Shown here piece after piece: positions 5,020-45,608 of a stretch of 64,000 nt of DNA. Numbering within the stretch: position 1 is the stretch's first letter; each line of letters opens with the position of its first letter. Under the pieces are notes generated by a model. That model was not told where the DNA came from, ran no database searches, and saw only the letters and a program-made list of their open reading frames with translations. The stretch comes from Cyanobium sp. FGCU6 (lineage in GTDB: Bacteria > Cyanobacteriota > Cyanobacteriia > PCC-6307 > Cyanobiaceae): the NCBI GenBank assembly GCA_024958655.1, contig JANWUR010000001.1, positions 124,001 to 188,000 on the forward strand, in the 5' to 3' direction. Position numbers and translations under genes: made by a program.

Positions 5020-5098
5020 GGGCGAGCACAAGAGGAATCGTGGAAACTGTCTGTGTGATGGCCGATCACTGCCGACCCTTTACCCCACCCTGTTTTTG

Positions 5099-5514
5099 CC
5101 CCTGCGTACCCTGATTGTTGAGGATCAAGGCATGTTTGCCCAGTTCGTCTGCCCGCGGCGCTGCAGCCGATCGTGATCGCCGTCGTGGACAGGACCCAGG
5201 CCATGGATGTGCTGCTTGCACAGGTAGCGGCCTACGTCGAGAGCATCGGTACCGTCCCCCATCTGGTGTTCACCCCCGACAGGCTGAATGGCCTCATCGG
5301 CCGGGAGCGTGAGGTTCTGGGCCGGCTCGGGCTGGGTGAGGCCACCAAGACGATCGCCAGGCATCTCGACCTCAGCGTGAGCACCGTGGAGAGCCACCGG
5401 CGCAACATCGCCGCCAAGCTCGGGGTGAGCGGCGCCGAGCTGATCCGGCTGGCGGTGCTTCACAACCTCTCCATCCTTCCCCCGTCCGGCGGAGCCGAGC
5501 TGCCGCCCGCCTGA
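5099..5514 (+). pseudogene. LuxR/NarL-type response regulator with most of the receiver domain lost
   Basis: The 3' part, open from GTG 5173 to TGA 5514, encodes 113 aa with a clear LuxR helix-turn-helix (GREREVLGRLGLGEATKTIA followed by SVSTVESHRR) that would bind DNA as a dimer. Just upstream, in another frame (about 5102-5147), is LRTLIVEDQGMFAQFV, the start of a receiver domain with its acidic ED pair. The middle of the receiver, including the phosphorylated Asp and conserved Lys, is missing, and the two parts are out of frame around 5145. So this is a remnant, or a receiver-less DNA-binding protein made from GTG 5173. It converges on the kinase remnant that follows. Confidence 0.75.
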
Positions 5515-5518
5515 TCGC

Positions 5519-7310: not shown

Positions 7311-7416
7311 CTGGTGGAACCTCACAGCCCCACGTCGGAGACCCTCATCCTGATGCGGAGGATTGGCCCTGCTGACTGAAGCGGCACCTCGGAACCGATC
7401 AGGCTCCGATCCGCTG

Positions 7417-7596
7417 CTAACGCTGGGCGGGTCCCCTCGAACCCGGGTCCTCCAGCAGGGCCGATTCGAGCAGGTAGGCGGCGAGATCGCTGAGGGACCG
7501 GCCCTGCTCGTCACTGCGTTGCACCAGCTCCTGATCGATGCGGTAGGGGATCGTGATGCTCACGCGGCGGGGGGCGCGAAGGACGTGGGCGGTCAT
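7417..7596 (-). CDS. small ribbon-helix-helix (CopG-like) protein
   Basis: 59 aa from the ATG at 7596. The segment RRVSITIPYRIDQELVQRSD followed by EQGRSLSDLAAYLLESAL fits a ribbon-helix-helix fold: a beta strand, a helix, a GRSLSDLA turn and a second helix. Such proteins bind DNA as dimers and often act as antitoxins or small repressors. No toxin gene adjoins it; the neighbours are the kinase remnant and the EamA exporter. Similar small proteins recur in marine Synechococcus genomes (from memory). Longer in-frame starts up to 7725 give non-conserved sequence. Confidence 0.75.
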   Translation of the reverse strand: MTAHVLRAPRRVSITIPYRIDQELVQRSDEQGRSLSDLAAYLLESALLEDPGSRGPAQR

Positions 7597-7696
7597 GGGG
7601 CAATCCTTTGACGTGTGCTGCGGTCTGGGGCCGGAATGCGGCATCGCGCCATCGTCCTGCAACTGCCACGCGGCGGAAATCCCCAGTTCTGGGGTG

Positions 7697-8572
7697 CTAC
7701 CGGTGGCACAGCGCCGCCGCTCCAAGGATCAGCGCTCCGCCCAGCAGCGTGGCCGGCGCCAGGCTCTCTCCGAACAGGCTCCAGCCCCACAGCGCGGCGA
7801 AGCCCACCTGGATGTAGCCCAGGGCCGTGGCCCGCCCGGCCGGCAGGCGGGTGAGGCCGTGGGTGAGCCCCAGCTGGCCCAGCTGGGTGAACAGGCCCAC
7901 CCCCAGCAGCCACAGCAGCTCGCTGGCGGTAGGCAGCACCGGATCGAACAGCACCAGCGGCAGGCTCAGCGGCACCGCCATGAGCGGGAACCAGAGCACG
8001 ATCACCAGCGGGTGTTCGCTGCGGCCCAGCTGGCGCACACTCACGTAGGCCACCGCGGTGAGCAGGGCGCCAGCCAGGGCCAGCACCACCCCGGCGGCGT
8101 GGCTGTCGCCACCGCCCACCGGTTGCAGCACCAGCACCACCCCCAGCCAGCCGAGGGCCAGGGCCAGCGCCATCCGCCTGCCGATCGGCTCCCCCAGCCA
8201 GCGCCAGGCGAGCAGTGCCGTGAGCGTGGGATACAGGTATTGCAACAGGGTGGCGGTGGCCAGCGGCAGCACCGCCAGGGCGGCGAACACGCAGAACAGC
8301 GCCACGCTGCCGGTGATCCCCCGCAACGCCAGCAGGCCCCGCCGCACCCCCCAGGGGCTCACGCCGGCGGCCCGCAGCATCCAGCCGCTCATCGCCACGT
8401 TGAGCAGGGCGCGGGCCAGCACGATCTCCGCCACCGGGATGCGCTGCACCACCCGCTTCACGCACACCGCCATCAGGCTGAAGGCCAGGGCGCCCAGCAG
8501 CAGGGCCAGCACGGCGCTCCGCTCCTCGGCGGCGGCGGTGACGCCGATTGCGGTGGCGGGACTGCGGCTCAC
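7697..8572 (-). CDS. EamA/DMT-family membrane transporter
   Basis: About 291 aa from the GTG at 8572, with roughly ten hydrophobic helices in two repeated EamA halves (ALLLGALAFSLMAVCVKRVV; LLQYLYPTLTALLAWRWLGE; then LALAGALLTAVAYVSVRQL). The PTLTALLAWRWLGE and second-half LFGESL segments are typical of the drug/metabolite transporter superfamily. The substrate cannot be read from sequence. The start is uncertain: other in-frame GTGs lie upstream at the same locus. It is divergent from dnaG, with about 150 nt between them. Confidence 0.87.
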   Translation of the reverse strand: MSRSPATAIGVTAAAEERSAVLALLLGALAFSLMAVCVKRVVQRIPVAEIVLARALLNVAMSGWMLRAAGVSPWGVRRGLLALRGITGSVALFCVFAALAVLPLATATLLQYLYPTLTALLAWRWLGEPIGRRMALALALGWLGVVLVLQPVGGGDSHAAGVVLALAGALLTAVAYVSVRQLGRSEHPLVIVLWFPLMAVPLSLPLVLFDPVLPTASELLWLLGVGLFTQLGQLGLTHGLTRLPAGRATALGYIQVGFAALWGWSLFGESLAPATLLGGALILGAAALCHR

Positions 8573-8722
8573 GGACCGATCGGCGGGCGCGTTCACCCTG
8601 GCAGGCGGTGGATCCGGCCGCTTCTCTCCCCCAGCCCTGGTGCCATGCACCACAATGGGGGTCAAAGGGGCCCCACTGCTGGTGTGCTCCCCGCCCTTCC
8701 CTTTTCTGTCTCCCCCGCCGCG

Positions 8723-10828
8723 TTGAGCACGCCCCGCCTCCACCCCCGCACGATCGAGGCCGTCAAGGAGCGGGCCGACATCGTCGAGGTGGTGGGCGAG
8801 CACGTGGTGCTGAAGAAGAAGGGCCGCGAGTTCGTGGGCCTCTGCCCCTTCCACGACGACCGCTCGCCGTCGATGACGGTGTCGCCGGCCAAGCAGTTCT
8901 ATTACTGCTTCTCCTGCGGCGCCGGCGGCAACGCGATCAAGTTCCTGATGGAACACCAGCGCGCCAGCTTCTCCGACGTGGTGCTGGAGCTGGCGCGCCG
9001 CTATCAGCTGCCCGTCGAGACCCTCGACGCCCCCCAGCAGGAGAGGCTGCGCCAGCAGCTCGGCCGCCGCGAGCGGCTCCACCGCGTGCTGGCCCTGGCC
9101 ACCGGCTGGTTCCAGGCCCAGCTGCGCTCGCCCGAGGGAGCCGAGGCCCTGGCCTACCTGCGCCAGAGCCGGCGGCTGAGCGAGAGCACGATCGATGCTT
9201 TCGCCCTCGGCTACGCCCCCGACCGCTGGGATGGCCTGCTCGCCCATCTCCAGCAGGTGGAGGGCTTCACGCCCGAGCTGCTGGAGGCGGCCGGCCTGGT
9301 GGTGCCCCGCAAGGGCGGCAGCGGCCACTACGACCGCTTCCGCCACCGGCTGATCGTGCCGATCCGCGACCGGCAGGGGCGGGTGATCGGCTTCGGCGGC
9401 CGCAGCCTCGACGGCGCCGAGCCCAAATACCTCAACTCACCGGAAACCGAGGTGTTCGAGAAGGGCCGCCATCTGTTCGGCCTCGACCGCGCCGCCGACG
9501 CCATCCGCCGCGAGGACCGCGCGGTGGTGGTGGAGGGCTACTTCGATGTGATCGCCCTGCACGCCGCCGGCATCACCCACGCGGTGGCGGCCCTGGGCAC
9601 CGCCCTCAGCAGCCGCCAGATCACCCAGCTGTGCCGCTGCTGTGACGGCAAGCGGCTGGTGCTCAACTTCGACGCCGATGCCGCCGGCGTGCGGGCCGCC
9701 CAGCGGGCGATCGGCGAGGTGGAGCAGCTGGCGCTCCAGGGCCAGCTGGAGCTGCGGGTGCTGCAGCTGCCCGCCGGCAAGGATCCCGACGAGTTCCTGC
9801 AGGAGCACGGCAGCGGCGAGTACCGCGCCCTGCTCGACGGCGCGCCCCTCTGGCTCGACTGGCAGATCGAGCAGGTGCTGGTCGGCCGCGATCTGGCCCG
9901 CGCCGACCAGTTCCAGCAGGCCGTTTCCGGCCTGGTGGCGCTGCTGGGCAAGCTGCCCCAGAGCGCCATACGCAGCCACTATCTGCAGCGGGTGGCCGAG
10001 CGCCTCTCCGGCGGCCAGGCCCGGCTGGCGCTGCAGCTCGAAGACGACCTGCGCCAGCAGGTGAAGGGCCAGCGCTGGCACGGGCGCTCCACCCGCTGGG
10101 AGCAGCCCGGCGACGCCGGCCTGCGCGAGCGCGCCGAGGCCGACCTGCTGCGCCTCTACCTCCACTGCCCCGAGCACCGGGGCGCCGTGCGTCAGGAGCT
10201 GCGAACCCGGGAGCTGGAGGACTTCGCCCTCCAGCACCACCGCCTGCTGTGGGCGATCGTCAGCGAGCTGGAGGAGGACAACCTCGGCGCCGGCCGGCTG
10301 GAGGCGATCGCCCGCGGCAGCGATCCCGGCCACGATCTGGCCGGCCTCGATCTGCCCCGCCTGCTCGGCGATCGCCTGCTGCTGGAGCGCAGCGATCTGC
10401 ACCAGCGGCTCACCCCCCTTCTCCATCCCAGCGAGGTGCAGCAGCTGGCCCTGCAGCAGCCGCTGCTGCAGCTGCGGGGTGCGGCCGCCGTGCTCGAGCG
10501 CCAGCGCACCCTGCGCCGCTGCCGCCACCTGCTCGACGCCTGGAGCGCCCAGCGGCTCGACACCCTGGAAACCTGCATCGCCCGGCTGCTGGAGGAGGAA
10601 GCCGATCCCGCCACCCCCGATCCCAGGCCTGCCGATCCCGGGGCTGGCGGCCCCCTCACCACCGCCGGGCTGGCGATGGAAGCCCGCGTCGACGCCCTGT
10701 TCGCCGCGCTCAACGGCGACGCCCTGCGCTTCCAGGACGCCTACTACAGCGAGCGTCGCTACCTGGGGGAGCTCGACCGCCGGCGCTGCGCCGCCATCGA
10801 CGAGCTGGTGATTCACCCGGCCGCCTGA
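8723..10828 (+). CDS. dnaG: DNA primase
   Basis: About 701 aa from a TTG at 8723 (STPRLHPRTIEAVKERADIV). A GTG at 8684 in the same frame is an alternative. DnaG makes RNA primers at the fork. Domains in order: a zinc ribbon (CPFHDDRSPSM ... YYCFSCGAGG), an RNA polymerase core with RFRHRLIVPI and GFGGRSL, a Toprim fold (VVVEGYFDVIALH ... LNFDADAAG) and a long helical C-terminus that would bind DnaB. The frame is open 390 codons further upstream, but that part is antisense to the EamA gene and not primase-like. Confidence 0.95.
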   Translation: MSTPRLHPRTIEAVKERADIVEVVGEHVVLKKKGREFVGLCPFHDDRSPSMTVSPAKQFYYCFSCGAGGNAIKFLMEHQRASFSDVVLELARRYQLPVETLDAPQQERLRQQLGRRERLHRVLALATGWFQAQLRSPEGAEALAYLRQSRRLSESTIDAFALGYAPDRWDGLLAHLQQVEGFTPELLEAAGLVVPRKGGSGHYDRFRHRLIVPIRDRQGRVIGFGGRSLDGAEPKYLNSPETEVFEKGRHLFGLDRAADAIRREDRAVVVEGYFDVIALHAAGITHAVAALGTALSSRQITQLCRCCDGKRLVLNFDADAAGVRAAQRAIGEVEQLALQGQLELRVLQLPAGKDPDEFLQEHGSGEYRALLDGAPLWLDWQIEQVLVGRDLARADQFQQAVSGLVALLGKLPQSAIRSHYLQRVAERLSGGQARLALQLEDDLRQQVKGQRWHGRSTRWEQPGDAGLRERAEADLLRLYLHCPEHRGAVRQELRTRELEDFALQHHRLLWAIVSELEEDNLGAGRLEAIARGSDPGHDLAGLDLPRLLGDRLLLERSDLHQRLTPLLHPSEVQQLALQQPLLQLRGAAAVLERQRTLRRCRHLLDAWSAQRLDTLETCIARLLEEEADPATPDPRPADPGAGGPLTTAGLAMEARVDALFAALNGDALRFQDAYYSERRYLGELDRRRCAAIDELVIHPAA

Positions 10829-33679: not shown

Positions 33680-34870
33680 TTGTCCGCTCCCGTCCCGCCC
33701 ACCGTTTCCACCACCCATCGCCTCGGGCTGGACCCCATCGCCACGCCGGATCGGCTGCTGCTCGGACCCGGGCCTTCCAATGCCCACCCCACGGTGCTGC
33801 AGGCCCTGGCCCGCACGCCGATCGGTCACCTCGATCCGCTGTACGTGGAGCTGATGGGCGAGGTGCAGGAGCTCCTGCGGTACACCTGGCAGACCGACAA
33901 CCGGCTCACCATCCCGATGAGCGGCACCGGCAGCGCCGCGATGGAGGCCACCCTGGCCAACACCATCGAACCGGGCGACAAGGTGCTGGTGGCGGTGAAG
34001 GGCTACTTCGGCCACCGCCTGGTGGACATGGCCGGCCGCTACCGGGCTGAGGTGGTCACGATCGAGCGCCCCTGGGGCGAGGCCTTCTCGCTGCAGGAGA
34101 TCGAGGAGGCCCTGATCACACATCGGCCGACCATCCTGGCGATCGTGCACGCCGAAACCTCCACCGGGGTGCTTCAGCCGATGGAGGGTATCGGCGAGCT
34201 CTGCCGCCTCCACGACTGCCTGCTGCTGCTCGATACCGTCACCTCCCTGGGGGCCGTTCCCCTCTTCCTCGATGACTGGAAGGTGGATCTTGCCTACAGC
34301 TGCAGCCAGAAGGGCCTGAGCTGCCCTCCGGGCCTGGGCCCCTTCACCATGGGTCCACGGGCCGAGGCCAAGATGATGGCGCGCCAGGACAAGGTGCCCA
34401 ACTGGTATCTGGATGTCACCTTGCTCAACCAGTACTGGGGCAGTGACCGCGTGTACCACCACACAGCTCCGGTGAATATGAACTTCGGCATGCGTGAGGC
34501 CCTGCGCCTGCTGGCCGAGGAAGGTCTGGAGAACGCCTGGGCCCGCCATCGCCGCAACGCCGAGGCCCTCTGGAGCGGCCTGGAGAGCCTGGGGCTGGAG
34601 CTGCACGTTCCCGAAGAGCTGCGCCTGCCCACCCTCACCACCGTGCGCATCCCGGAGGGGGTGGACGGCAAGGCCTTCAGCCTTCACCTGCTCGACCGCC
34701 ACGGCATCGAGGTGGGCGGCGGCCTCGGGGCTCTGGCCGGCAAGGTGTGGCGCATCGGTCTGATGGGCTACAACAGCACCCCCGAGAACGTTGAGCGGCT
34801 GCTCAATCTGTTCGCCACCGAGCTTCCGGCCTTCCGTCCTTCAGCTCCCGTGGCTGCCGCCGTCGGCTGA
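33680..34870 (+). CDS. serine/alanine-glyoxylate aminotransferase family enzyme
   Basis: 396 aa from a TTG at 33680. Class V PLP aminotransferase: LLGPGPSNAHPTVLQAL at the start, PMSGTGSAAMEATLANT, LDTVTSLGAVPLFLDDW with the cofactor Asp, and the Schiff-base Lys in YSCSQKGLSCPPGLG. In cyanobacteria such enzymes transaminate glyoxylate with Ser or Ala in photorespiration. The substrate cannot be fixed from sequence. Its 3' end overlaps the convergent tadA gene by 68 nt. Confidence 0.93.
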   Translation: MSAPVPPTVSTTHRLGLDPIATPDRLLLGPGPSNAHPTVLQALARTPIGHLDPLYVELMGEVQELLRYTWQTDNRLTIPMSGTGSAAMEATLANTIEPGDKVLVAVKGYFGHRLVDMAGRYRAEVVTIERPWGEAFSLQEIEEALITHRPTILAIVHAETSTGVLQPMEGIGELCRLHDCLLLLDTVTSLGAVPLFLDDWKVDLAYSCSQKGLSCPPGLGPFTMGPRAEAKMMARQDKVPNWYLDVTLLNQYWGSDRVYHHTAPVNMNFGMREALRLLAEEGLENAWARHRRNAEALWSGLESLGLELHVPEELRLPTLTTVRIPEGVDGKAFSLHLLDRHGIEVGGGLGALAGKVWRIGLMGYNSTPENVERLLNLFATELPAFRPSAPVAAAVG

Positions 34871-35422: not shown

Positions 35423-36862
35423 ATGCCGCTCTCGCCGTTGGCCACCTCCTTCCCTGCAACTCAGGGTGTGCTGGGTGCGGAGCCCCTGGCGCCCTTCCCC
35501 GATCCCCATCGCCACGATCCAGAGCTGGAGCGCTTCCTGCATGACGCCTCCTCCCAGCTCTGCCGCTGGCTGGGATCCGCGTCGGCAACCAGCCCCCTGC
35601 CCGGCCTGAGCGTGCTGCCGGCCGTGGAGCCCGAACCGACCGGCCTCACGCCCGATCGCCTGCTCGCCGATCTCCAGCTGGTGATGGAGGGTGCTTACAA
35701 CCCGGGCCATCCCGGTGCGATCGCCCACCTGGATCCGCCGCCGCTGGCAGCTTCTGTGGCGGCCGACCTGATCTGCGCGGGCCTGAACAACAACCTGCTG
35801 GCGGAGGAGCTCTCGCCCTCCCTCAGCCGTCTGGAGCGGAGCCTCTGCGGCTGGCTGGCGGAGCGGCTGGGTCTCCCCGCCGGCGCCGGCGGCGTGGCCG
35901 CCAGCGGCGGCAGCCTCAGCAACCTGATGGCCCTGGTGGTCGCCCGCCATCACCGCGGCCTGCTCGAGCGGCGTGACGCGGTGGTGGTGGCCAGTGAGGA
36001 GGCCCATGTGTCGCTGGCCAAGGCGCTGGTGGTGATGGGTCTGCCCCCCTCCGCCCTGGTCGCGGTCCCCACCGACGCCGGCGGCCGTCTCGATGCCGCT
36101 GCCCTGGATCTCGTGCTCTCCGATCTGGAGCGGGCCGGGCGGCCCGTGATCGCCGTGGTGGCCACCGCCGGCACCACGGTGCGCGGCGCGGTCGATCCGC
36201 TGCCCGAGGTCGCCACCCTCTGCCGCCGCCACGGCCACTGGCTGCATGTCGACGGGGCGATCGGGGCGGTGTTCGCCCTGGCCCCCGCCCACGCGGGGCG
36301 GGTGGAGGGTCTGGGGCTGGCGGATTCGCTCACCGTCAATCCCCAGAAGCTGCTGGGCATCACCAAGACCTCCTCCCTGCTGCTGCTGGCCCGGCCTGCC
36401 CTGCTGCTCGACACCTTCCACACCGGTCTGCCCTACATGGAGCTCAGCTGGGGCGGCGGCCACGGCGGTGAGACCGGACTGCAGGGCACGCGTCCGGCCG
36501 AGATCCTCAAGCTCTGGCTGGGCCTGCGCCAGCTCGGGGAGACGGGCATCGCGGCGCTGATCCAGGGAGCGATCGAGCGGCGTCGGCACCTCGAGCGGCT
36601 GCTGTGCCCGCTGGCCGACCTGGAGCTGGTTCAGGGATCGCTGCACCTGCTGGCCTTCCGGCCGGCGGGCCTGTCCCCCGAGGTGAGCGAGCGCTGGAGC
36701 CAGGACACCCGCCAGGCCCTGCTGGCCCGCCAGCTGATGCTCTCGCGGCCCCTGTACCGCGGCCATCACCACCTCAAGGCCGTGCTCGGCAATCCCCATA
36801 CCGCTCAGGCCGAGCTCGCAGCGGTGGCCGAGGTGGTGGGCCGCAGCCTGCCATCGCCCTGA
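35423..36862 (+). CDS. PLP-dependent decarboxylase (group II family)
   Basis: 479 aa. Fold-type I decarboxylase related to diaminobutyrate/aromatic amino acid decarboxylases: GHPGAIAHLDPPP-type N-terminal substrate loop (NPGHPGAIAHLDPPPLAAS), GVAASGGSLSNLMALVVAR, TAGTTVRGAVDPL, and HVDGAIGAVFALAPAH. The Lys in VNPQKLLGITKTSS is the likely Schiff-base residue, replacing the usual HKW context. The substrate cannot be assigned. The next ORF starts 3 nt after its stop. Confidence 0.9.
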   Translation: MPLSPLATSFPATQGVLGAEPLAPFPDPHRHDPELERFLHDASSQLCRWLGSASATSPLPGLSVLPAVEPEPTGLTPDRLLADLQLVMEGAYNPGHPGAIAHLDPPPLAASVAADLICAGLNNNLLAEELSPSLSRLERSLCGWLAERLGLPAGAGGVAASGGSLSNLMALVVARHHRGLLERRDAVVVASEEAHVSLAKALVVMGLPPSALVAVPTDAGGRLDAAALDLVLSDLERAGRPVIAVVATAGTTVRGAVDPLPEVATLCRRHGHWLHVDGAIGAVFALAPAHAGRVEGLGLADSLTVNPQKLLGITKTSSLLLLARPALLLDTFHTGLPYMELSWGGGHGGETGLQGTRPAEILKLWLGLRQLGETGIAALIQGAIERRRHLERLLCPLADLELVQGSLHLLAFRPAGLSPEVSERWSQDTRQALLARQLMLSRPLYRGHHHLKAVLGNPHTAQAELAAVAEVVGRSLPSP

Positions 36863-36865
36863 TCC

Positions 36866-37174
36866 ATGCCCATGCCCGATCCCACCTCGTCAACAACCCC
36901 AACCTCGGCCCCCAGCCGCCGCTCCCGTTGGGTGGCGATCCTCACGGGCGCTCTTTCGATCCTGATCGGCCTGCTCTATCTGGCCCTGGTCACCGTGCTC
37001 GATCGCTCCGGCCCCCTGCTGCCCCCGCCTCCGGAGGCTCTGGTGGGCGCACCGGCCGCCGGGGGCCCGCCGGTCTCGGCGGCAACCGCAGCCCGCGACC
37101 CCGCTGCAGGGGCTCCACCACCCGCTGGAGCGCTGCCGCCAGGAAGGCCTGCAGCGCCCCTTCGCGCCGGTTGA
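36866..37174 (+). CDS. small single-helix membrane protein, overlapping the GTPase gene tail
   Basis: Up to 102 aa from the ATG at 36866 (alternative ATG 36872). SRRSRWVAILTGALSILIGL followed by LYLALVTVLDRSGPLLPPP resembles a short conserved picocyanobacterial membrane protein of about 60-70 aa. The rest, from about 36990 on, is Pro/Ala/Gly-rich and antisense to the 3' end of the DUF697 GTPase gene (185 nt overlap), so it may be non-conserved read-on. It follows the decarboxylase by 3 nt. Confidence 0.6.
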   Translation: MPMPDPTSSTTPTSAPSRRSRWVAILTGALSILIGLLYLALVTVLDRSGPLLPPPPEALVGAPAAGGPPVSAATAARDPAAGAPPPAGALPPGRPAAPLRAG

Positions 37175-38612
37175 GCTCGTACTCCTTCTGCAGCACCTCC
37201 GCCAGTCCGCCGTCACCCCAGTCCTGGTCCTGGCGGAAATAGGTGATGAAGCTGCGGCCCGCCACCCGGGTGAGCCAGGCCACGCTCACCGCCTGGATCG
37301 CCCGGCCCACCACCACCGCCGGCAGGGACAGGCTCAGGGCACTGCCGAGCAGGGCGACACCTCCCTTGATCAGCCCCAGCCCCGCCAGCGTGCGCCCCAC
37401 GGACACCGCCAGATCCTGGGCGGCGGGGCGGCTGAGGGTGACGCCGTAGATGCGGCCGATTTCGAGCACCATCTGGGCATGCACCGCCGCCGTGCCGAGC
37501 AGGTCGACCCCGGGCAGGGGGGTCACCATCACCACGCCGGCGCCGATCCACATGAAGCGTTCCACCACCGTCTCCGCATCGCTGCGGCGCTGCCGATCCA
37601 GCAGCTCCCGGCTCGCCTCCCCCAGTCGCCGGCACTGCAGCAGCAGGTTGTCGGCGATCAGCTCCTCCCCATCGGCATGCAGCACCGCGGCCATTCTGCG
37701 CACCAGGGCCTCCACCTCGGCCGGCGGCTGCAGCGGACGGCCCCCGGGCATCGGCACGCTCTGGGGAGCGGCGGCGGCGGGGATCACGTCCTCGGCGGCG
37801 ATGCGGGCGCCGCCACGGCCCCGCAGCAGCGCCAGCAGGCGCTCCTCCTCCCGCTCGCCGCGCAGGTCGCACTTGTTGAGCACCAGCAGCAGCCGCTTGC
37901 CCAACGAGGCCAGGGTGTCGAGCACCTCCTGTTCGGAGGCCCGCAGATCGCCGTCCACCACCAGGAGCAGCAGGTCGGCCCGGGCGGCCTGGCGGCGGGC
38001 CTGTTCCTCCCGCTCCCGCCCCTCCTGGCCGGCCTCGAGGATGCCGGGGGTGTCCTCCAGGAGCACCGCCCGCTCCAGGCCCCTGAGCCGCAGCCGGTAG
38101 CGGGCGGTGCTGCGCGTGGAGCCCATGGGTGCGCCCACCTCGCCCACCAGCTCGTTGAGCAGGGCCCGGATCAGGGATGTCTTGCCGGCAGAGCCGGTGC
38201 CGAAGACCACGATCCGCAGATCACCGCGCTCCAGTTCCGCCTGCACCCGCTCCCGTTCCTGGCGCAGGGCTTCGGCGTCCACGGCGTCTCGCACCCGCTC
38301 CAGGGTGCGGTCGATCGCCTCCAGATTGCGGGCGGCCGCCTCCCGCCGGCTGGTGGGAGGCCGGATCGCTGTCGCCGCGCTGCCGCCCGCCCTGCCGCCG
38401 CGCCGCAGGGCCTGCCACCAGGGGAGACCCAGCTGCACCAGGGCCACCAGCAGGGCGGCCACCACCGCCAGCAGCAGCGGGCCCACCAGCCACCCCGGCA
38501 ACCAGTAGCTCAGCTGCCAGAGCAGCTGGTTCACCGCCTGCAGCACCAGCCCCACGGCCAGCAGGCCGGCGAGGGCCAGCCCGATCCAGAGCCAGAGGCG
38601 GCGGCCGGGCAT
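36990..38612 (-). CDS. membrane-associated GTPase with DUF697 domain
   Basis: 540 aa. Two N-terminal membrane helices (about 7-28 and 40-65) precede a Ras-like GTPase domain: P-loop FGTGSAGKTSLIRALL, switch region GSTRSTARYRLRL, G3 LLEDTPGI, G4 LNKCDL. A C-terminal DUF697 region has further hydrophobic segments (WIGAGVVMVTPLPGVDLLGT). Its ATG overlaps the penicillin-binding protein stop by 1 nt (TGATG), making it the last gene of bioY-lspA-PBP-GTPase. The function of such GTPases is unknown; membrane remodelling or envelope assembly is a guess. The Pro/Arg-rich tail overlaps the opposite ORF. Confidence 0.88.
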   Translation of the reverse strand: MPGRRLWLWIGLALAGLLAVGLVLQAVNQLLWQLSYWLPGWLVGPLLLAVVAALLVALVQLGLPWWQALRRGGRAGGSAATAIRPPTSRREAAARNLEAIDRTLERVRDAVDAEALRQERERVQAELERGDLRIVVFGTGSAGKTSLIRALLNELVGEVGAPMGSTRSTARYRLRLRGLERAVLLEDTPGILEAGQEGREREEQARRQAARADLLLLVVDGDLRASEQEVLDTLASLGKRLLLVLNKCDLRGEREEERLLALLRGRGGARIAAEDVIPAAAAPQSVPMPGGRPLQPPAEVEALVRRMAAVLHADGEELIADNLLLQCRRLGEASRELLDRQRRSDAETVVERFMWIGAGVVMVTPLPGVDLLGTAAVHAQMVLEIGRIYGVTLSRPAAQDLAVSVGRTLAGLGLIKGGVALLGSALSLSLPAVVVGRAIQAVSVAWLTRVAGRSFITYFRQDQDWGDGGLAEVLQKEYELNRREGALQAFLAAALQRVVEPLQRGRGLRLPPRPAGPRRPVRPPEPPEAGAAGGRSDRAR

Positions 38613-40792
38613 CAGTCGGCGGCCGGGGCGGAGCGCATGATCTCGCCCCAGAGGGAGGCCGCCAAGGCGCTGGTGGCCTGGGTGGGGCGGTTGTCGTCAT
38701 TCCCCAGCCAGATGCCCATCACCCAGTGGCTGCGGGGATCGAAACCCACGAACACCAGGTCGCGGGCGTCGTTGGTGGTGCCCGTCTTGCCGCCGGCGCC
38801 GCCGGGAATCCATGCCGCCGTGCCTGTGCCCCCGTTCACCACCGCCTGGAGCATCGCCTGCATCTGCTTCGCGGAGGTGGGCTTCACCACCCGGCGCCCG
38901 GGTGCGAGGGCGCTGCGCTGCCCCGAAGGGCCCGGGCGGCAGTCGCCACGGCCGCCGGCGGTTGCCCCTGGACGGCCGCAGCTCTCGGCGTCGGTGAGCC
39001 GGCGGATGGTGGTGGGCGCATGCCAGACCCCGTCGGCCGCCACGGCGCCGTAGGCGGCGGTCAGTTCGAGCAGGGTCACCTCGCTCTGGCCCAGGGCCAG
39101 GCCCGGAACGGGGTTGAGCGGGCTGGTGATCCCCAGCTCCCTGGCTTTCTGCACCACCGCCTCCAGGCCCACCTGGCGGGCGGTGCGCAGGGCGGCGGTG
39201 TTGCTGCTGATCGCCAGGGCCTGGCGCAGGCTGAGACTGCCGCCGCAGCCGCTGTCGAAGAACTGGCCCTGCCAGCGCAGGGGAGCGCAGCTCACCGGAT
39301 CCGTGGGCCTGGCTCCCCGTTCCAGGGCCACGAGATAGGGGATCAGCTTGAAGGTGCTGCCGGGCTGGCGCAGCGCCATCGTGGCCCGGTTGAACTGGCT
39401 GCTGCCGTAGTCGCGGCCGCCGGCGATCGCCAGCACCCCGCCGGTGCGGCTGTCGAGCACCACCACCGCTCCCTGGCTGACGCCGGCGCCGCGGTTGAGG
39501 TCGATGCGCTGGCGCAGCAGCCGCTGCACCAGCTCCTGCAGGGCGGGATCGAGGTGGGTATCGACGAGGAAGTTGCCCTCGGCCGCCACATCCGGCCCCA
39601 CCAGGGCATCCAGATCCCGCCGCACCTGATCGCTGTAGAAGGGGGCGGCCTTCCTTTCGCTGCTGCGGCAGGCGCCGCCCGCCAGACGGATCGGCCGGCG
39701 GCGGGCGGCGCGGGCGGCATCGGCGGAGACGCGGCCGGTATCGGCCATCTTCGCCAGCACCTGATTGCGTGAGCGCAGGGCCTCCTGAGGGGCGATGCAG
39801 GGGTCGAAACCGTTGGGGGAGGGCAGCAGCCCCACCAGCAGGGCCGCCTCCTCGAGATCGAGTTGTGCCGCAGGCTTGGCGAACAGCCGCCGGGAGGCAT
39901 CTTCGAAGCCCCAGCCGGCGCCGAGATAGGCGCGGTTCAGGTAGCTGAGCAACAGGTCGTGCTTGCTGAAGCGCGCCTCCAATTGCAGGGCCACCAGAAG
40001 CTCGCGCCATTTCCGGCCCAGGGTCTCCCCCTGACCCACCTGCTCGGGATAGAGGCTCCGGGCCAGCTGCTGGGTGAGCGTGCTGCCGCCCTCCAGCACC
40101 CGTCCGCCCATCAGATTCACCACCAGGGCACGGGCCGTGCCGATCGGATCCACTCCGGGATGCTGCCAGAAGCGGCTGTCCTCGCTGGCCAGCAGGGCAT
40201 CGACCAACACCTTCGGGTAGCCGTCGAGACGCGCCAGCTCCCGGTGGCGGCGATCATCGGCCGAGGCGATCGGCCGGTCCTGCCGGTCGTAGAGCACCAG
40301 CGGACCCCGCACCGTGGCGAGACTGCCGCGGATCGGCAGGCTGAGCAAGGAAAGCGCCAGCAGCAGCAGTCCCCCGGCCGAAATCCCTCCCAGGGCCAGG
40401 GCCGGTACCGTCAGCAGCCGGGGCAGCCAGGGCCGCGGATGCTGCACGAAGCTGAACTCCGGCACGCCGGCTTCGGCCTCGGGGCCGAAGCGCACCCGGT
40501 CGCCGTCGCGCAGCACCAGCTCCCTCACCCGCCGGCCCTGCCACCAGAGACCGTTGGTCGAGTCGTTGTCGCGCAGCAGCCAGCTGCCGCCGCGGCGTTC
40601 CAGCAGGGCATGGCGACGGCTCACCGCCCCGTGGTCGATCACGATGTCGCTGGAGGGATCGCGGCCGATCCGGTAGCAGGCTCCCGGCAGGGCCTGCCGG
40701 CGATCCGGCGCCTGCGGCTGGTGCACCACCACTTCGGCTGGTTCGGCCACCGCCCCCCCCGACCGGAACCGACGCTCGAGACTGTCAAGCAT
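38612..40792 (-). CDS. class A penicillin-binding protein with N-terminal FHA domain
   Basis: 726 aa from the ATG at 40792. An FHA phosphothreonine-binding domain (about 35-115: YRIGRDPSSDIVIDHGAVSR, DNDSTNGLWW) precedes a membrane helix (about 135-160). A GT51 glycosyltransferase follows, with catalytic Glu in LLASEDSRFWQHPGVDPIG and GGSTLTQQLARSLYPEQ. The transpeptidase domain has STFK in RQPGSTFKLIPY, SSN in AISSNTAALR, and KTG in GGKTGTTNDA. It polymerises and crosslinks peptidoglycan; the FHA domain suggests control by Ser/Thr phosphorylation. Overlaps lspA by 8 nt. Confidence 0.95.
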   Translation of the reverse strand: MLDSLERRFRSGGAVAEPAEVVVHQPQAPDRRQALPGACYRIGRDPSSDIVIDHGAVSRRHALLERRGGSWLLRDNDSTNGLWWQGRRVRELVLRDGDRVRFGPEAEAGVPEFSFVQHPRPWLPRLLTVPALALGGISAGGLLLLALSLLSLPIRGSLATVRGPLVLYDRQDRPIASADDRRHRELARLDGYPKVLVDALLASEDSRFWQHPGVDPIGTARALVVNLMGGRVLEGGSTLTQQLARSLYPEQVGQGETLGRKWRELLVALQLEARFSKHDLLLSYLNRAYLGAGWGFEDASRRLFAKPAAQLDLEEAALLVGLLPSPNGFDPCIAPQEALRSRNQVLAKMADTGRVSADAARAARRRPIRLAGGACRSSERKAAPFYSDQVRRDLDALVGPDVAAEGNFLVDTHLDPALQELVQRLLRQRIDLNRGAGVSQGAVVVLDSRTGGVLAIAGGRDYGSSQFNRATMALRQPGSTFKLIPYLVALERGARPTDPVSCAPLRWQGQFFDSGCGGSLSLRQALAISSNTAALRTARQVGLEAVVQKARELGITSPLNPVPGLALGQSEVTLLELTAAYGAVAADGVWHAPTTIRRLTDAESCGRPGATAGGRGDCRPGPSGQRSALAPGRRVVKPTSAKQMQAMLQAVVNGGTGTAAWIPGGAGGKTGTTNDARDLVFVGFDPRSHWVMGIWLGNDDNRPTQATSALAASLWGEIMRSAPAAD

Positions 40793-41288
40793 CGGAGGTC
40801 TGCTGGGGCCTGAGCAGGTCGACCAGGAAGCAGAGCACGGCCATGTTGATGGCCACGTCGGCGAGGTTGAAGATCGGGAAGTGCACCGGTACGAACTCGA
40901 GGAAATCCACCACCCAGCCGAGGCGCCAGCGATCGAGACCGTTGCCGAGGGTGCCTCCGAGCAGAAACCCCGCCCCCAGCGACAGCCACAGGCCGGCGGG
41001 TGGGCGCAGCAGCAGCCAGGCCGCCACCCCGATGGCCGCCAGGGCACTGACGAGCCCCAGCAGGGCGGTGTTGCCGCTGAGCAAACTGAAGGCAGCTCCG
41101 GTGTTCGCCACGCGGCGCAACTGCAGCAGTCCGGGCAGAAAGGGTTGCACCACTCCGTCCGCCAGGTGTCGGCTGGCCCAGAGCTTGCTGGCCTGATCCA
41201 GCAGCACGACGGCGATGGCCACGGCCCAGGCCATCAGCTCGCGGCGGCGGGGAGGAAGCGGCCGCCGGCGACTGGCGATGCCCCTCAC
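40785..41288 (-). CDS. lspA: lipoprotein signal peptidase (SPase II)
   Basis: 167 aa from a GTG at 41288 that overlaps the bioY stop (GTGA). Four membrane helices. The conserved blocks include LLDQASKLWA, RRVANTGAAFSLL, GGTLGNGLDRWRLGWVVDFL and FPIFNLADVAINMAV, whose two Asp residues form the catalytic dyad. It removes signal peptides from prolipoproteins at the plasma membrane. The frame is open upstream through bioY antiphase, which I exclude. Confidence 0.95.
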   Translation of the reverse strand: MRGIASRRRPLPPRRRELMAWAVAIAVVLLDQASKLWASRHLADGVVQPFLPGLLQLRRVANTGAAFSLLSGNTALLGLVSALAAIGVAAWLLLRPPAGLWLSLGAGFLLGGTLGNGLDRWRLGWVVDFLEFVPVHFPIFNLADVAINMAVLCFLVDLLRPQQTSDA

Positions 41289-41854
41289 GACTCGATCAGC
41301 AGCAACCGCCGCATCAGCCAGGCCAGAACTCCCACCGCGCAGCAGAGCAGCAGCTGGGGCAACAGGGCCAGGCTGTAGCGCAGCAGCAGAGGCAGCAGAC
41401 CGGTGCCCCATCGACCGGCAAGGCCTCCCAGCAGCAGGTTCACAAGGCCCGTGAGGTGGAGGACCAGCAGGCCCACGGCCGCTGCCGCCGCCAGGCTGAG
41501 GGGATCGTCGAGGCGGCCCTGGCGGGCCAGGCGCCCGGTGAGCCATGCCGCCGGCACGAAGCCCGCGAGGTAGCCGAAGCCGGGGTCGAGCAGGTAGCCC
41601 AGCCCTCCCCCTTCATGGAACACAGGCAGCTGGAACAGGCCGATGCTCAGGTAGGCCACGGCAGCGAGCATGGCGCTGCGGGGGCCGCAGACCAGGGCCG
41701 TGAGCAGCAGGGCCGGGACCTGGAGGGTGATGCCCAGGGGCCGGATCGACCAGCCGGCGGCGTCGTGGAAGGGCAGGGCGGCGGGCACCAGCCCACCCAC
41801 CACGATCAGCAAGAGACCGGCGATGGCGCCGCTCCAGGTGGCAAGGGCCCGCAA
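41285..41854 (-). CDS. bioY: BioY-family biotin transporter substrate-binding subunit
   Basis: 189 aa from a TTG at 41854. Five to six helices with the BioY pattern ITLQVPALLLTALVCGPRSA, AYLSIGLFQLPVF, GGGLGYLLDPGFGYLAGF and LLVLHLTGLVNLLLGG. BioY is the S-component of energy-coupling factor transporters and can bind biotin alone; no ECF ATPase genes are nearby. First gene of the coupled envelope operon. Co-transcription with lspA is commonly seen in cyanobacteria (recollection). Confidence 0.88.
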   Translation of the reverse strand: MRALATWSGAIAGLLLIVVGGLVPAALPFHDAAGWSIRPLGITLQVPALLLTALVCGPRSAMLAAVAYLSIGLFQLPVFHEGGGLGYLLDPGFGYLAGFVPAAWLTGRLARQGRLDDPLSLAAAAAVGLLVLHLTGLVNLLLGGLAGRWGTGLLPLLLRYSLALLPQLLLCCAVGVLAWLMRRLLLIES

Positions 41855-41949
41855 ACCGCAGTGTCCAGACTGGCGACCATCCTGCTGCAGCTAGGGTCGG
41901 CTGAGAAGGGTGCAGTGGGGTTACCGGTGTTGTTCATGTTGTGGTGGCG

Positions 41950-42225
41950 ATGACGGCAGTGGCGAGCGAAAGCGCCGACGACTGGCAGACCCCCGGCTTC
42001 GCTGTGGGCGATCCGGTGGTTCTGGCGGCATCCCTCCCTTATCTCAAAACCGCCGATCCGATGCCGATGTTGCGGCCCCCGGATCTGGTGGTTGCCGATG
42101 AGGTGGGCCGGGTGGTGGAGATCCGCCCGCGTGGGTGGTTCGCCGTGGCCTTCCGGCGGGGCACCTTTCTGATCGCCGCGGCCAACCTTCGCTCCGCTGT
42201 CACCGGATCCACGCCGACGGCCTAG
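41950..42225 (+). CDS. sipA: SipA-type (DUF3148) regulator of the NblS/Hik33 kinase
   Basis: About 91 aa from the ATG at 41950 (an in-frame GTG at 41941 is possible). The diagnostic block is LPYLKTADPMPMLRPPDLV, then DEVGRVVEIRPRGWFAVAFR and GTFLIAAANL, an SH3-like barrel. In Synechococcus elongatus SipA binds the histidine kinase NblS and tunes its response to light and nutrient stress. The stop TAG lies in a CTAG shared with the oppositely oriented M16 gene's stop. Confidence 0.85.
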   Translation: MTAVASESADDWQTPGFAVGDPVVLAASLPYLKTADPMPMLRPPDLVVADEVGRVVEIRPRGWFAVAFRRGTFLIAAANLRSAVTGSTPTA

Positions 42226-43544
42226 GGACTGACGCCGAGCGCGTGACGCTCCCAGGCCCCGCAGGCGGCAGCCAGGGCCGCCTGCGGGCCCACCAGGCTC
42301 AGGCAGGGGGGCGCGAGGCAGCGACGGGCCGCCGCCCGCAGGGCCCCTGCATCCAGGCCCGGCGCCTGGGCCAGCATCCGCTCCATATGGTCGGCCGGCA
42401 GGCCGTGGCTGAGCACCAGGGCGTCGCGCTCGGCGATCTGGGAGCAGGTCTGGCGGCCCATCGCCTCCTGGCCCACCAGCTTGGCCAGCGCCAGCTGCCG
42501 TTCCTCCTCCGTCAGGAGCTCCTCCTGCAGTCTCTGCCACTCGTCGAGCAGACAGGTGGTGGCCTCGGCGGCCCGATCGGCGGAGGTGGAGAGGTGCAGC
42601 ACGAAAGGGGCGGCTCCGCAGCGGGCCGGCAGATGGACCCCCACGTCGTAGGCCAGGCCCCGCTCCTCCCGCATCACCACGAACAGCCGGCACGACATCC
42701 CCATGCCGAGATGGGTCTGGAGCAGTCGCAGGGCCAGGGCATCGGGGTGGCCCATGGGAATGGTGGCGCTGCCCAGCATCAGCACCAGCTGCTCGGTGTC
42801 CTGCGCCTCCGTCGCCAGGCGTGGCCCGTGCGGGGGCGGCGCGGCACTGCGGGCTGAGGACTCCCAGGCTTCGGGCGCCCCCGGCAGATGGGTGCTCCAG
42901 GCCTCGGCTTCAGCGCCGGTCACCAGCAGCTGCTCCACCCCGGAGGGCACTTCACCGCACAGCACCAGCACGGCGCCGTCCTGGCCCAGGCGGCGCTGCA
43001 GCGGTCTGAGATCGGTGGCCTCCAGCGTGGCCAGCTCGTCCTCCACCCCCAGGGGGTCGTGGCCGTAGGGCCCGTGGCCATAGAGCTGGTGGCGCAGCTG
43101 GTCGTGAGCCAGTTGGAAGGGGTCCTCCCGCTGGCGCTGCAGGGTCTGGAGATTGAGCTGTCGCTCCAGCTCCACCTGATCGGAAGCGAGGGTGGGCCGC
43201 ACCACCATCTCCAGCAGCAGGGGCAGCAGCTCTGCCGCATCGGCGGCGGCGCACTTGAGACCGATCACCAGGCCGTCCTCATGGGCCTCGGCCCGCAGAG
43301 CGGCGCCGGCGCCCTCCACGCGATCGGCCAGAGCCTCGGCGTCGAGATCGCCGCAGCCGCGGGTCATCAGGCCCGCCAGCAGCTGGTGGGCGCCGCGGGC
43401 GCCGGCCGGATCGCGGCTGCTGCCCCCGCGGATCACCAGGCGGGCGGCGAGGATCGCCGGGCCGCGGCGGGGATGGATCACCAGGGGCAGCCCGCCGGCG
43501 AGGGTCAGCCGTTCGGTCGCGGAGGGGGAGTGCGGCAGGCTCAT
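42222..43544 (-). CDS. M16 peptidase family protein, non-catalytic subunit
   Basis: 440 aa. Two M16 half-domains, with FVVMREERGLAYDVGVHLPA near the C-terminal half as in pitrilysin-like proteins. Where the zinc motif HxxEH should be, it reads GAHQLLAGLMTRG, so the Glu and second His are missing. It should therefore pair with the catalytic protein encoded immediately upstream, as in heterodimeric processing peptidases. The ATG at 43544 overlaps the stop of that gene by 4 nt. Confidence 0.9.
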   Translation of the reverse strand: MSLPHSPSATERLTLAGGLPLVIHPRRGPAILAARLVIRGGSSRDPAGARGAHQLLAGLMTRGCGDLDAEALADRVEGAGAALRAEAHEDGLVIGLKCAAADAAELLPLLLEMVVRPTLASDQVELERQLNLQTLQRQREDPFQLAHDQLRHQLYGHGPYGHDPLGVEDELATLEATDLRPLQRRLGQDGAVLVLCGEVPSGVEQLLVTGAEAEAWSTHLPGAPEAWESSARSAAPPPHGPRLATEAQDTEQLVLMLGSATIPMGHPDALALRLLQTHLGMGMSCRLFVVMREERGLAYDVGVHLPARCGAAPFVLHLSTSADRAAEATTCLLDEWQRLQEELLTEEERQLALAKLVGQEAMGRQTCSQIAERDALVLSHGLPADHMERMLAQAPGLDAGALRAAARRCLAPPCLSLVGPQAALAAACGAWERHALGVSP

Positions 43545-44815
43545 GCGGGCAGGGCCTCCAGCACGCTGGCCCGCGTCGGATCGAGCAGGTTCAGGGTTTC
43601 GCGCTTCAGCCGGCCCGGATCCCAGCGTTCCAGCAGCTGCAGGGGGCGCTCCAGAGCGTGATGGCGGCCCCACAGCTGGCAGTTGCCGATCAGACCGGCG
43701 ACGGCGCCGGCGGATTCGAGGCCGAAGCGGTAGCTGTTGGCCACCAGCCGCCGGCTGCGCTCCCACTCGCTGGCCTCGATCGGGCCCGCCATCAGCTCCT
43801 CCCACACCTCCGTCACGGAGTGCCGCACCCGGGGGAGCTCCTCCGGTTCGCAGACGGCCTCCAGCAGGGCGAGGCTGCCGAACTCCATGGCATGCAGATC
43901 GAGATCGATGCTCTCCACGATCCGCAGCTGTTCCCGCAGCCGTTCCACCAACCGGCTGCGGCGGCCTTCAGCCAGCAGGGTGGTGGCCAGATCGGCCCCC
44001 ATCACCGCCTCCAGATCACGGGCCGGCGGCAGCCACCAGGCCATCAGCAGCCGGGCGGCCTCCAGCCGCGGGAGTTCAAGCTGTTCCTCCCCCGCCTCGA
44101 TCTGCAGCAGCGGGGGATCGTTGATCCCCTCGGCCGGTGCGAGTGTGGCCAGCGGGCTTTCAGCGGCGCGGCGCAGCAGGTTGCCGTCGCCGATCGCACC
44201 GCCGAGGGCGAGCACGCAGCGGTCGGCGGCATAGAGCCGGCGATGGAAGGCCGCCATGGCGTCCGGATTGTGGGTCTGAAGCGCCGGGCGGCGGCCCAGG
44301 ATCGGCAGGCCGTAGGGGTGATCCGGGCAGGCCCGCTCCAGCAGACGCTGCAGGGCCACCTCCTCGGGCTGGTCCTCGCTCTGGGCCAGCTCCTCAAGCA
44401 CCACCTGACGCTCCATGGCGAAGGCCTCCGCCTCCAGGCGGGGGGCCAGCACCAGATCCAGCAGCAGGTCGAGGGCCTCGCCCGCCGCCTGGGGGGGAAT
44501 CAGCACGTGGTAGTGAACGTCGTCGAAGCCGGTGGCGGCGTTGCTGTTGCCGCCAAGGGCCTCGATGCGCCGATCGAACTCGCCCGCCTCCAGCCGCTCG
44601 CTGCCCTTGAACACCATGTGTTCAAGGAAGTGGGCCATGCCGCTCTCCGACGCCGACTCGAAAACGCTGCCGGCCCGGCACCAGAAGTCGATGCACACCA
44701 CCGGTGCCTCGGCCATCGGCAGGGCCACCACGTTCACGCCATTGGTGAGGCGCTGCCGCTGCGGTTCGGCCAGCCCCGGCAGCAACGGCTCACAACGGGT
44801 CTCGGTTTTGCTCAT
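43541..44815 (-). CDS. M16 zinc metallopeptidase, catalytic subunit
   Basis: 424 aa. The inverted zinc motif is HFLEH in SESGMAHFLEHMVFKGSERL at about residue 60. The distal Glu of the M16 family lies about 75 residues later, within RQVVLEELAQSEDQPEEVAL. Related to processing peptidases that degrade signal or transit peptides and small peptides. It is upstream of and coupled to the non-catalytic partner (ATGA overlap). Divergent from pcyA, 43 nt apart. Confidence 0.94.
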   Translation of the reverse strand: MSKTETRCEPLLPGLAEPQRQRLTNGVNVVALPMAEAPVVCIDFWCRAGSVFESASESGMAHFLEHMVFKGSERLEAGEFDRRIEALGGNSNAATGFDDVHYHVLIPPQAAGEALDLLLDLVLAPRLEAEAFAMERQVVLEELAQSEDQPEEVALQRLLERACPDHPYGLPILGRRPALQTHNPDAMAAFHRRLYAADRCVLALGGAIGDGNLLRRAAESPLATLAPAEGINDPPLLQIEAGEEQLELPRLEAARLLMAWWLPPARDLEAVMGADLATTLLAEGRRSRLVERLREQLRIVESIDLDLHAMEFGSLALLEAVCEPEELPRVRHSVTEVWEELMAGPIEASEWERSRRLVANSYRFGLESAGAVAGLIGNCQLWGRHHALERPLQLLERWDPGRLKRETLNLLDPTRASVLEALPA

Positions 44816-44858
44816 GCACCCATGGCAGGATCTGCATTCTGCTGGCCCCAAGGCCGCG

Positions 44859-45608
44859 ATGAGTTCGAGCGCGTCCCCTGCCCCTCCCGTGAGCGGCGGC
44901 ATCCATCCGCTGGTGGATGCCCTCGCCCAGCGCATCCGCCAGCGCTGGAGTGAGCTGCCGGAACTGGAACCCCTGGCGATCGATCCGGAGCTGGAAGCCA
45001 TCTGCGGCAGCCTCGACGGCGAAGACCTCTTCATCCGCAATGAAGTGCACCGCTGCCGCGGGCTGCGCAAGCTGCACCTGGAAACCGCGCGGCTGGGGGC
45101 GGGGCTGCAGATCCTGCACTGTGTCTTCTTCCCCGACCCCCGCTACGACCTGCCGGTCTTCGGGGCTGACATCGTCGCCGGCCGGGGGGTGGTGTCGGCG
45201 GCGATCGTCGACCTCTCACCGGTGACGGAGCAGCTGCCGGCCCCGATCGAGGCCGCCCTGGCGGCTCGCGACGTGGGGCCCTTCGCTCAGCGCCGCGAGC
45301 TGCCGGCCTGGGGATCGATCTTCTCCCGCCATGTGCTGTTCGTGCGGCCCGCCGATGCGGAGGAGGAGCAGGCCTTCATCGAGCAGGTGGATACCTTCCT
45401 GGCGGTTCTGGCGGCGGCGGTGGCGGCGGCGCAACCGCAGGCCCCCGACGACCCGGCTACGGTGATGCGCCTGGAGGGGCAGCTCCGCTATTGCAAGCAA
45501 CAGAAACAGAACGACAAGACCCGGCGGGTGCTGGAGAAGGCGTTCAACCCCATCTGGGCGGATCGCTACATCGAGGAGCTCCTTTTCGACGACCCCGTCG
45601 CCCCCTGA
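44859..45608 (+). CDS. pcyA: phycocyanobilin:ferredoxin oxidoreductase
   Basis: 249 aa from the ATG at 44859. Four-electron reduction of biliverdin IXalpha to phycocyanobilin, the chromophore of ApcF and other phycobiliproteins. Residues equivalent to the catalytic Glu76, His88 and Asp105 of the Synechocystis enzyme are visible in KLHLETARLG, QILHCVFFPDPRYDLPVFGAD. The C-terminus has KQQKQNDKTRRVLEKAFNPI and ADRYIEELLF. Its 3' end overlaps the next gene if that starts at TTG 45491. Confidence 0.97.
   Translation: MSSSASPAPPVSGGIHPLVDALAQRIRQRWSELPELEPLAIDPELEAICGSLDGEDLFIRNEVHRCRGLRKLHLETARLGAGLQILHCVFFPDPRYDLPVFGADIVAGRGVVSAAIVDLSPVTEQLPAPIEAALAARDVGPFAQRRELPAWGSIFSRHVLFVRPADAEEEQAFIEQVDTFLAVLAAAVAAAQPQAPDDPATVMRLEGQLRYCKQQKQNDKTRRVLEKAFNPIWADRYIEELLFDDPVAP

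Follow-up and report, generated by a model that had tools for sequence, protein, structure and literature searches.

In the present work, we describe a four-gene row of the cyanobacterium Cyanobium sp. FGCU6 that encodes the biotin-uptake protein bioY, the lipoprotein signal peptidase lspA, a class A penicillin-binding protein (PBP) with an N-terminal FHA domain, and a membrane GTPase with a DUF697 domain. The row lies in a stretch of 64,000 nucleotides (assembly GCA_024958655.1, contig JANWUR010000001.1, positions 124,001 to 188,000), hereafter the window, in whose numbering positions are given. Our preferred reading, to which we give an even chance, is that the FHA-PBP would be a peptidoglycan synthase docked on a Ser/Thr kinase, and that the GTPase would be a separate protein co-encoded with it through long-standing needs of co-expression or local assembly. 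An initial annotation of the window had proposed peptidoglycan synthesis under kinase and GTP control, with the GTPase as a candidate regulator; the phospho-signalling half of that proposal is better founded than the annotation could know, and the half that makes the GTPase a regulator of the PBP is less so.

Structure and Linkage of the Row

All four genes lie on the minus strand, in the order bioY (a substrate-binding membrane protein, 41285–41854; PF02632 at 93.9 bits against a cut-off of 25; TTG start), lspA (signal peptidase II, 40785–41288; TIGR00077 at 95.8 against 73.95, and PF01252; GTG start), the FHA-PBP gene (726 residues, 38612–40792; PF00498, PF00912, and PF00905), and the gene for an Era-like GTPase with DUF697 (540 residues, 36990–38612; PF01926, or MMR_HSR1, at 62 bits and PF05128 at 176.1 against a cut-off of 27.7). 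They overlap by 4 (bioY/lspA), 8 (lspA/PBP), and 1 (PBP/GTPase) nucleotides, the first of these overlaps requiring the GTG start of lspA, since it is abolished by the alternative ATG at 41234. Both the row with its overlaps and the fusion of FHA to a bifunctional PBP ahead of a DUF697 GTPase gene, as first annotated, are thus borne out, the latter by Pfam domains, and the genes may be co-transcribed.

Tight coupling of the PBP and GTPase genes is general among the FHA-PBP-bearing loci of the organism's own family (Cyanobiaceae, f1) and is no quirk of one genome. The order lspA-PBP-GTPase on one strand was found in 27/27 such loci fetched (window included); the nearest GTPase start stands at −4 or −1 in 19 of them and within 37 nucleotides in all, where the start chosen was that nearest to the PBP stop, a choice that biases toward overlap. 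A seeming PBP-GTPase fusion in genome G035, a frame of 1270 residues, was rejected as a spurious out-of-frame extension; the genes overlap by 1 nucleotide there too.

Across the class (Cyanobacteriia), 145 genomes were searched for both proteins. The GTPase was detected (E ≤ 1e-60) in 134 of these, and in every member of a linkage set of 120 genomes whose best listed PBP match reached E ≤ 3.4e-129 (in nine, the start of the match falls within the FHA part or beyond it). In 20 of the 120, no more than 10 kilobases (kb) separate the two genes, which are always on the same strand (20/20) and have the PBP gene first in 19/20; these loci belong to families f1, f2, f10, f18, f19, f24, and f28. The remaining 100 have them more than 10 kb apart or split, with the genes on different contigs in 68, although drafts cannot always be judged in this respect. 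Conservation of the pair, which the initial annotation had proposed to check, is therefore positive, and the linkage is real and old.

Outside the family, the gene for an RRM-like RNA-binding protein of 100–135 residues separates the PBP and GTPase genes in 15 of the 16 linked loci (L039, L057–L069, and L071); the label is our reading of the sequence, and other frames also lie between the two genes. The sixteenth locus has the reverse gene order, and in the 27 own-family PBP-bearing loci the two genes adjoin instead. One locus, L069, carries the entire row bioY-lspA-PBP-RRM-GTPase, and two others (L082 and L091) hold bioY-lspA-PBP with no GTPase match in the 15 kb read. Linked loci elsewhere in the class mostly have the RRM-like gene between the pair, and the row of the window is thus a tightened form of an old cluster.

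It may be that bioY, lspA, and the PBP and GTPase genes are membrane-protein genes that share expression only, with no direct link between PBP and GTPase, an explanation that we take seriously and place a little short of an even chance. The row joins unrelated functions (biotin uptake and lipoprotein processing), the RRM-like gene splits the pair in nearly all linked loci outside the family, and the 55 own-family loci mapped show a nearly invariant wider block, SipA-bioY-lspA-(PBP)-GTPase-decarboxylase-tadA-spt, with or without the PBP gene. Mere convenience fits less well with a linkage that turns up in seven families although gene order across the class has otherwise been heavily rearranged, or with the other PBP copies: of the 17 listed, 8 lie on the GTPase contig (9 elsewhere), and none of these 8, examined by eye, is within 10 kb of the GTPase gene.

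The FHA-PBP Protein

The PBP looks like an active peptidoglycan synthase of class A, with an FHA domain at its N-terminus that would read phosphothreonine. We aligned 52 orthologues, 26 from the own family and 26 from other families of the class, with the window copy as reference. The GT51 domain (PF00912, 172.2 bits) keeps E204, D205, Q241, K261, and E264 in all 52, and the transpeptidase motifs SxxK, SxN, and KTG likewise keep S479, K482, S529, N531, K669, and G671. In the FHA domain (PF00498, 74.1 bits; residues 40–103, minus strand, 40484–40675, with the same match position in the FHA census below), G43, R44, S58, H61, N80, and G81 are identical in 52/52; a conserved Gly-Arg, Ser, His, and Asn-Gly make up the phosphothreonine-binding pattern of such domains. 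A hydrophobic stretch between FHA and GT51 is a putative membrane anchor.

The protein resembles the PBP1A family (TIGR02074) in its transpeptidase and GT51 domains, where no checked motif residue is missing, and differs from it in the extra N-terminal FHA domain and in a score of 445.3 bits, under the cut-off of 508.75. Because the FHA-PBP is widespread in the class, its architecture is probably already in family databases. A search of the open-licence literature found no paper on the function of the FHA-PBP or on the DUF697 GTPase of this row.

A Candidate Kinase and Its Decay with the FHA-PBP

A Pfam scan of ten proteins in and around the operon found no kinase domain. Elsewhere in the genome, two Pkinase matches reach E ≤ 1e-10, and a third, weaker one adjoins a second FHA-PBP. 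The search for a Ser/Thr kinase that the initial annotation had suggested leads to a PknB-like candidate of 711 residues (G000:C53; locus L097, C53:212501–217500, 560–2695), on a contig other than that of the PBP. A hydrophobic stretch appears to separate its two halves; no PASTA domain was found in a general Pfam scan, which was not a search aimed at such domains.

The candidate kinase is the likely partner of the FHA-PBP and tends to decay upon loss of the latter, judging from a survey of 151 own-family genomes searched for PBP, kinase, and GTPase. The FHA-PBP (E ≤ 1e-150) was found in 67 of these and some part of the kinase gene (E ≤ 1e-20) in 82, that is, in 66/67 FHA-PBP-bearing genomes (the exception is 73% complete) vs 16/84 PBP-less ones. 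Kinase sequences were fetched for 28 of the former 67 genomes and for 15 of the latter 16 (that of G291, 78% complete, was omitted). The catalytic-loop Asp and Asn and the Asp of DFG are kept in all 27 readable PBP-bearing genomes (24 read automatically and three by eye; one more copy is cut by a contig end), with the Phe of DFG replaced in a few. The same three catalytic residues are lost or absent in 14 of the 15 PBP-less genomes in which part of the gene survives, and the decayed copies retain the non-catalytic half.

Closely related species show the same pattern. In genus g31, three species with the PBP also have the kinase domain (residues were read in G233 and G297, and the match range only in G313), and three PBP-less species have a broken kinase domain with the rest of the protein kept. 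In genus g32, G310 has both PBP and kinase, and among five PBP-less species the site is broken in two, the kinase domain is missing from two, and the site is intact in G256. A tree of flanking genes implies 5 changes for the PBP and 6 for the kinase, and independent losses of the PBP in the family number 4–5. Across bacteria, FHA proteins correlate near-perfectly with Ser/Thr kinases and phosphatases, and several marine picocyanobacteria have no kinases, as already published (PMC2176072).

That this co-decay reflects genome streamlining only, and is uninformative on function, we consider unlikely: PBP-less genomes are mostly smaller, as streamlining would have it, but decaying kinase genes lose the catalytic half and keep the other, and in both g31 and g32 kinase integrity tracks the PBP, except in G256.

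A Candidate Docking Site

Matches to FHA (E ≤ 1e-6) were counted in 52 genomes. The PBP is the sole match in 14 of 23 PBP-bearing own-family genomes, the other nine having three or four; in the organism itself, the matches fall in the two FHA-PBPs and in an FHA protein encoded next to the second one. Among 26 PBP-less own-family genomes, 22 have no match, three have two, and G103 also has two. At these thresholds (E ≤ 1e-10 for Pkinase), G091 and G167 each have one Pkinase match and one FHA match. The two FHA matches of G103 fall in a frame of 785 residues (G103:C6:5072-5590; L096), about 5 kb from a kinase gene and near a trypsin-TPR gene.

Between its kinase domain and hydrophobic stretch, the candidate kinase has a low-complexity segment with one conserved element, which in the own family mostly reads P-[ED]-S-T-G-P-x-x-R-A-D-R-T-V-x-L-V-P. 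The R-T-x-x-L of this juxtamembrane element is present in 28/28 PBP-bearing own-family kinases read; the first Thr of the element (S-T-G-P) is replaced in G023 and G207. In PBP-less G239, Pro replaces the Thr of R-T-x-x-L, and the motif was not found in the remaining PBP-less copies, two discussed below excepted. A hydrophobic residue at +3 of the phosphothreonine is a common FHA preference, and the pattern T-[VLI]-x-[VLIM] occurs in 25 of 27 readable PBP-bearing segments vs 2.5 expected by shuffling (in G205, away from R-T) and in 7 of 10 readable kinase segments of the class vs 1.5 expected. We thus regard the conserved R-T-x-x-L as a candidate FHA docking site.

The FHA domain might instead bind another phosphoprotein, for example a division or elongation protein, with the kinase as writer only. 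This is rather improbable in our estimation, even though FHA proteins often read kinase substrates and in larger genomes kinase matches run into the tens (50 in G087), with several to FHA as well (6 in G048 and 7 in G130). The Thr-x-x-hydrophobic motif recurs within a juxtamembrane stretch that is otherwise of low complexity, and a link between the FHA protein FhaA and the juxtamembrane domain of PknB in its phosphorylated form has been reported for Mycobacterium tuberculosis (PMC12077195).

Several observations weigh against a synthase docked on this kinase. One genome, G256, has no PBP yet has an intact kinase catalytic site, and both G256 and the PBP-less G103 retain R-T-x-x-L. The supported independent pairs number four, and on average the kinase follows the PBP in 3.9 of them (sign test, p 0.125); with four pairs, the test cannot reach significance. 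The lysine of VAIK is replaced by Arg in the readable own-family copies with an intact site, and no other N-lobe lysine is obvious, so kinase activity is not certain. Streamlining of marine picocyanobacteria, which removes signalling genes, could drive both losses. Automatic reading failed for 10 of 20 class kinase segments, and the close similarity of the own-family kinases, for which common descent is possible, makes the motif weaker as independent evidence. Finally, the kinase gene lies outside the operon, so that the notion of kinase-controlled synthesis gains a PknB-like candidate whose catalytic site is mostly lost with the FHA-PBP, but one that the row itself does not encode.

A Second FHA-PBP and Its Kinase Cluster

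Divergent from the gene for the second FHA-PBP of the organism (762 residues; L092, C47:14001–33000, 4051–10806) lie genes for an FHA protein, a PP2C phosphatase, and a Ser/Thr kinase whose C-terminal cysteines are zinc-ribbon-like, and similar FHA-PBP/kinase/PP2C clusters are found in G161 (L094) and G009 (L095). This arrangement presumably resembles kinase systems of the TerY-P type. It shares an FHA-PBP with the row of the window, there with Ser/Thr kinase, PP2C, and FHA protein as neighbours; the two PBPs are paralogues of 40–43% identity, and the kinase, which lies within the cluster, is of another type than the PknB-like candidate. The C47 kinase cluster was considered as the source of the operon's own kinase and rejected, as it belongs to the paralogous FHA-PBP.

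The GTPase and Its Retention

The GTPase is best viewed as a membrane protein in its own right, nearly universal in cyanobacteria, with a function that persists without the PBP. Among the own-family genomes of good quality (completeness of 90% or more and contamination of 5% or less), it was found (E ≤ 1e-50) in 95/95, vs 52/95 for the FHA-PBP (E ≤ 1e-150). The 55 mapped loci, which were fetched around the GTPase or PBP gene and so show order and not presence, comprise 27 with bioY-lspA-PBP-GTPase and 28 with bioY-lspA-GTPase; in all of the latter the GTPase gene adjoins lspA, even in genomes of 1.7–1.9 Mb. Since the flanks are near-identical throughout the 55 loci, the PBP gene was evidently dropped from the row while the GTPase gene stayed, and since the GTPase is retained beside lspA in PBP-less genomes, it has a job independent of the FHA-PBP. 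Joint loss of GTPase and PBP was looked for in the family and not found. Two PBP-bearing assemblies have no GTPase match (G268 and G276, 88% and 77% complete). When ten PBP-less own-family genomes were searched for transglycosylases, nine kept at least one class A-type match and one (G077) had none.

At the level of the class, 11 of the 145 genomes lack a GTPase match, six of them in f13 and two in f33. In nine of the 11, the listed PBP matches start at query residue 139 or later and thus have no FHA part; the other two genomes are absent from the listing. The eight genomes of f13 and f33 without a match at E ≤ 1e-60 are G048, G069, G083, G108, G119, G150, G130, and G140, and G048 has no DUF697 match either. 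We take f13 and f33, as an assumption and not as a result, to be perhaps relatives of Gloeobacter and Anthocerotibacter. DUF697 GTPases may mark thylakoid-bearing cyanobacteria.

The protein has the motifs of an Era-like (TRAFAC) GTPase, namely a P-loop, DTPG, and NKCD, and G143 and K144 of the P-loop, D187, P189, and G190, and N246, K247, and D249 are invariant in 20/20 aligned GTPases. The best named match is from Cyanobium sp. FGCU52 (91%), followed by other Cyanobium, Synechococcus, and uncultured cyanobacteria, in a comparison from which near-identical records were possibly omitted. Like the slr1306 family (NF049994) and other DUF697 GTPases, it has a GTPase domain followed by DUF697; at 221.9 bits vs a cut-off of 490 it is a relative of the slr1306 family and not a member. 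Escherichia coli YcjF is a DUF697 protein without a G domain of its own. Dynamin_N scores 27.3 vs a cut-off of 27, but no stretch passes.

An AlphaFold model (mean predicted local distance difference test score 69.8; predicted template modelling score 0.51) shows a G domain preceded by two long helices at the N-terminus and followed by a helical C-terminal region. The top Foldseek rows among solved structures (IRG, IniA, Era, and EHD) reach template modelling (TM) scores by query length of only 0.2–0.3, the long alignments having root-mean-square deviations of 12–24; phmmer against solved structures aligns over the G-domain region. Given the low TM scores, no claim made here rests on the structure of the GTPase.

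Direct regulation of the PBP by the GTPase, which would place wall synthesis under joint kinase and GTP control, is quite improbable, for although the old same-strand linkage with its nearly constant order, the tight coupling in the own family, the presence of the GTPase in all 120 genomes with the strongest PBP matches, and the missing FHA part in nine of the 11 GTPase-less genomes all speak for it, the GTPase gene stands beside lspA in every PBP-less locus read, lies far from or split from the PBP gene in most of the 120 class genomes compared (drafts included), and was nowhere seen fused to it. Of the GTP-controlled synthesis that had been proposed, the linkage part stands, and the role of the GTPase as regulator is weakened by its retention (95/95 vs 52/95; 28/28 beside lspA); it is probably not a dedicated regulator of the FHA-PBP.

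Proposed Mechanism and Comparison with Known Systems

With a kinase-docked synthase as the preferred reading, the following sequence of events can be envisaged. The second half of the kinase would sense the envelope, and the kinase, whose activity is putative and which in the own family has Arg in place of the VAIK lysine, would phosphorylate its own juxtamembrane Thr in R-T-x-x-L. The FHA domain of the PBP would bind this phosphothreonine, as residue conservation and co-decay suggest, and docking would either place the synthase at the site where the kinase senses or activate it there, so that control would run from kinase to synthase. The GTPase, which is retained where the PBP is lost, would have a role at the membrane that does not require the PBP; speculatively, its task might be envelope or thylakoid building.

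A more ambitious joint version of this scheme, which we offer tentatively and hold to be possible but short of probable, is a minimal phospho-relay in which one membrane Ser/Thr kinase would directly dock one FHA synthase through its juxtamembrane phosphothreonine, while the adjacent, old, and near-universal GTPase would build envelope or thylakoid membrane. On the same tentative footing, some picocyanobacteria would have these as their only FHA protein and only Hanks-type kinase at the thresholds used, and the GTPase would be missing from lineages, probably at the thylakoid-less base of the class, that are also without the FHA-PBP.

A known counterpart is the PknB-FhaA/FhaB-PBP module of actinobacteria, which controls wall synthesis with a membrane Ser/Thr kinase, an FHA reader, and a wall synthase. 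The architecture described here is a variant on this theme: the FHA domain is fused to the synthase, the kinase gene is unlinked, on another contig, and the organisms are cyanobacteria. Candidate docking at a juxtamembrane site, as discussed for PknB and FhaA (PMC12077195), would be a further likeness.

Neighbouring Genes

Two genes outside the operon are conserved as its neighbours. Upstream, a small SipA-like/CRR42-like protein is encoded divergently from bioY (41941–42225, plus strand); it passes the cut-off of PF11347 and, at 76.6 bits, falls under the cut-off of 100 for the NCBIfam model RegSipA. At the other end, a pyridoxal-dependent decarboxylase gene (35423–36862, plus strand; PF00282) is convergent with the GTPase gene. 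The nearly fixed flanks vary in four genomes: G185 holds a partial decarboxylase gene and neither tadA nor spt within the stretch, G220 likewise lacks spt there, and G060 and G114 show no match to SipA.

Farther out, an aminotransferase gene (33680–34870, plus strand) and tadA (ending at 34803, minus strand) overlap tail to tail by 68 nucleotides (34803–34870), and the two adjoin in most own-family loci read. Beside the SipA-like gene lie two adjacent genes of the M16 peptidase family (42222–44863), with one strong (102.7 bits) and one weak (30.4 bits) M16 match.

Implications

To our knowledge, the control of wall growth in cyanobacteria is poorly known. Retention of the GTPase where the PBP is lost serves as a warning that a coupled operon is not the same as a pair of regulator and target. 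With a synthase that carries its own predicted phosphothreonine reader, a named candidate kinase, and a candidate docking Thr, what had been a vague phospho-sensor becomes directly testable in a laboratory strain, and the genomes with a single match each to FHA and to kinase would offer about the simplest setting for FHA-directed wall synthesis.

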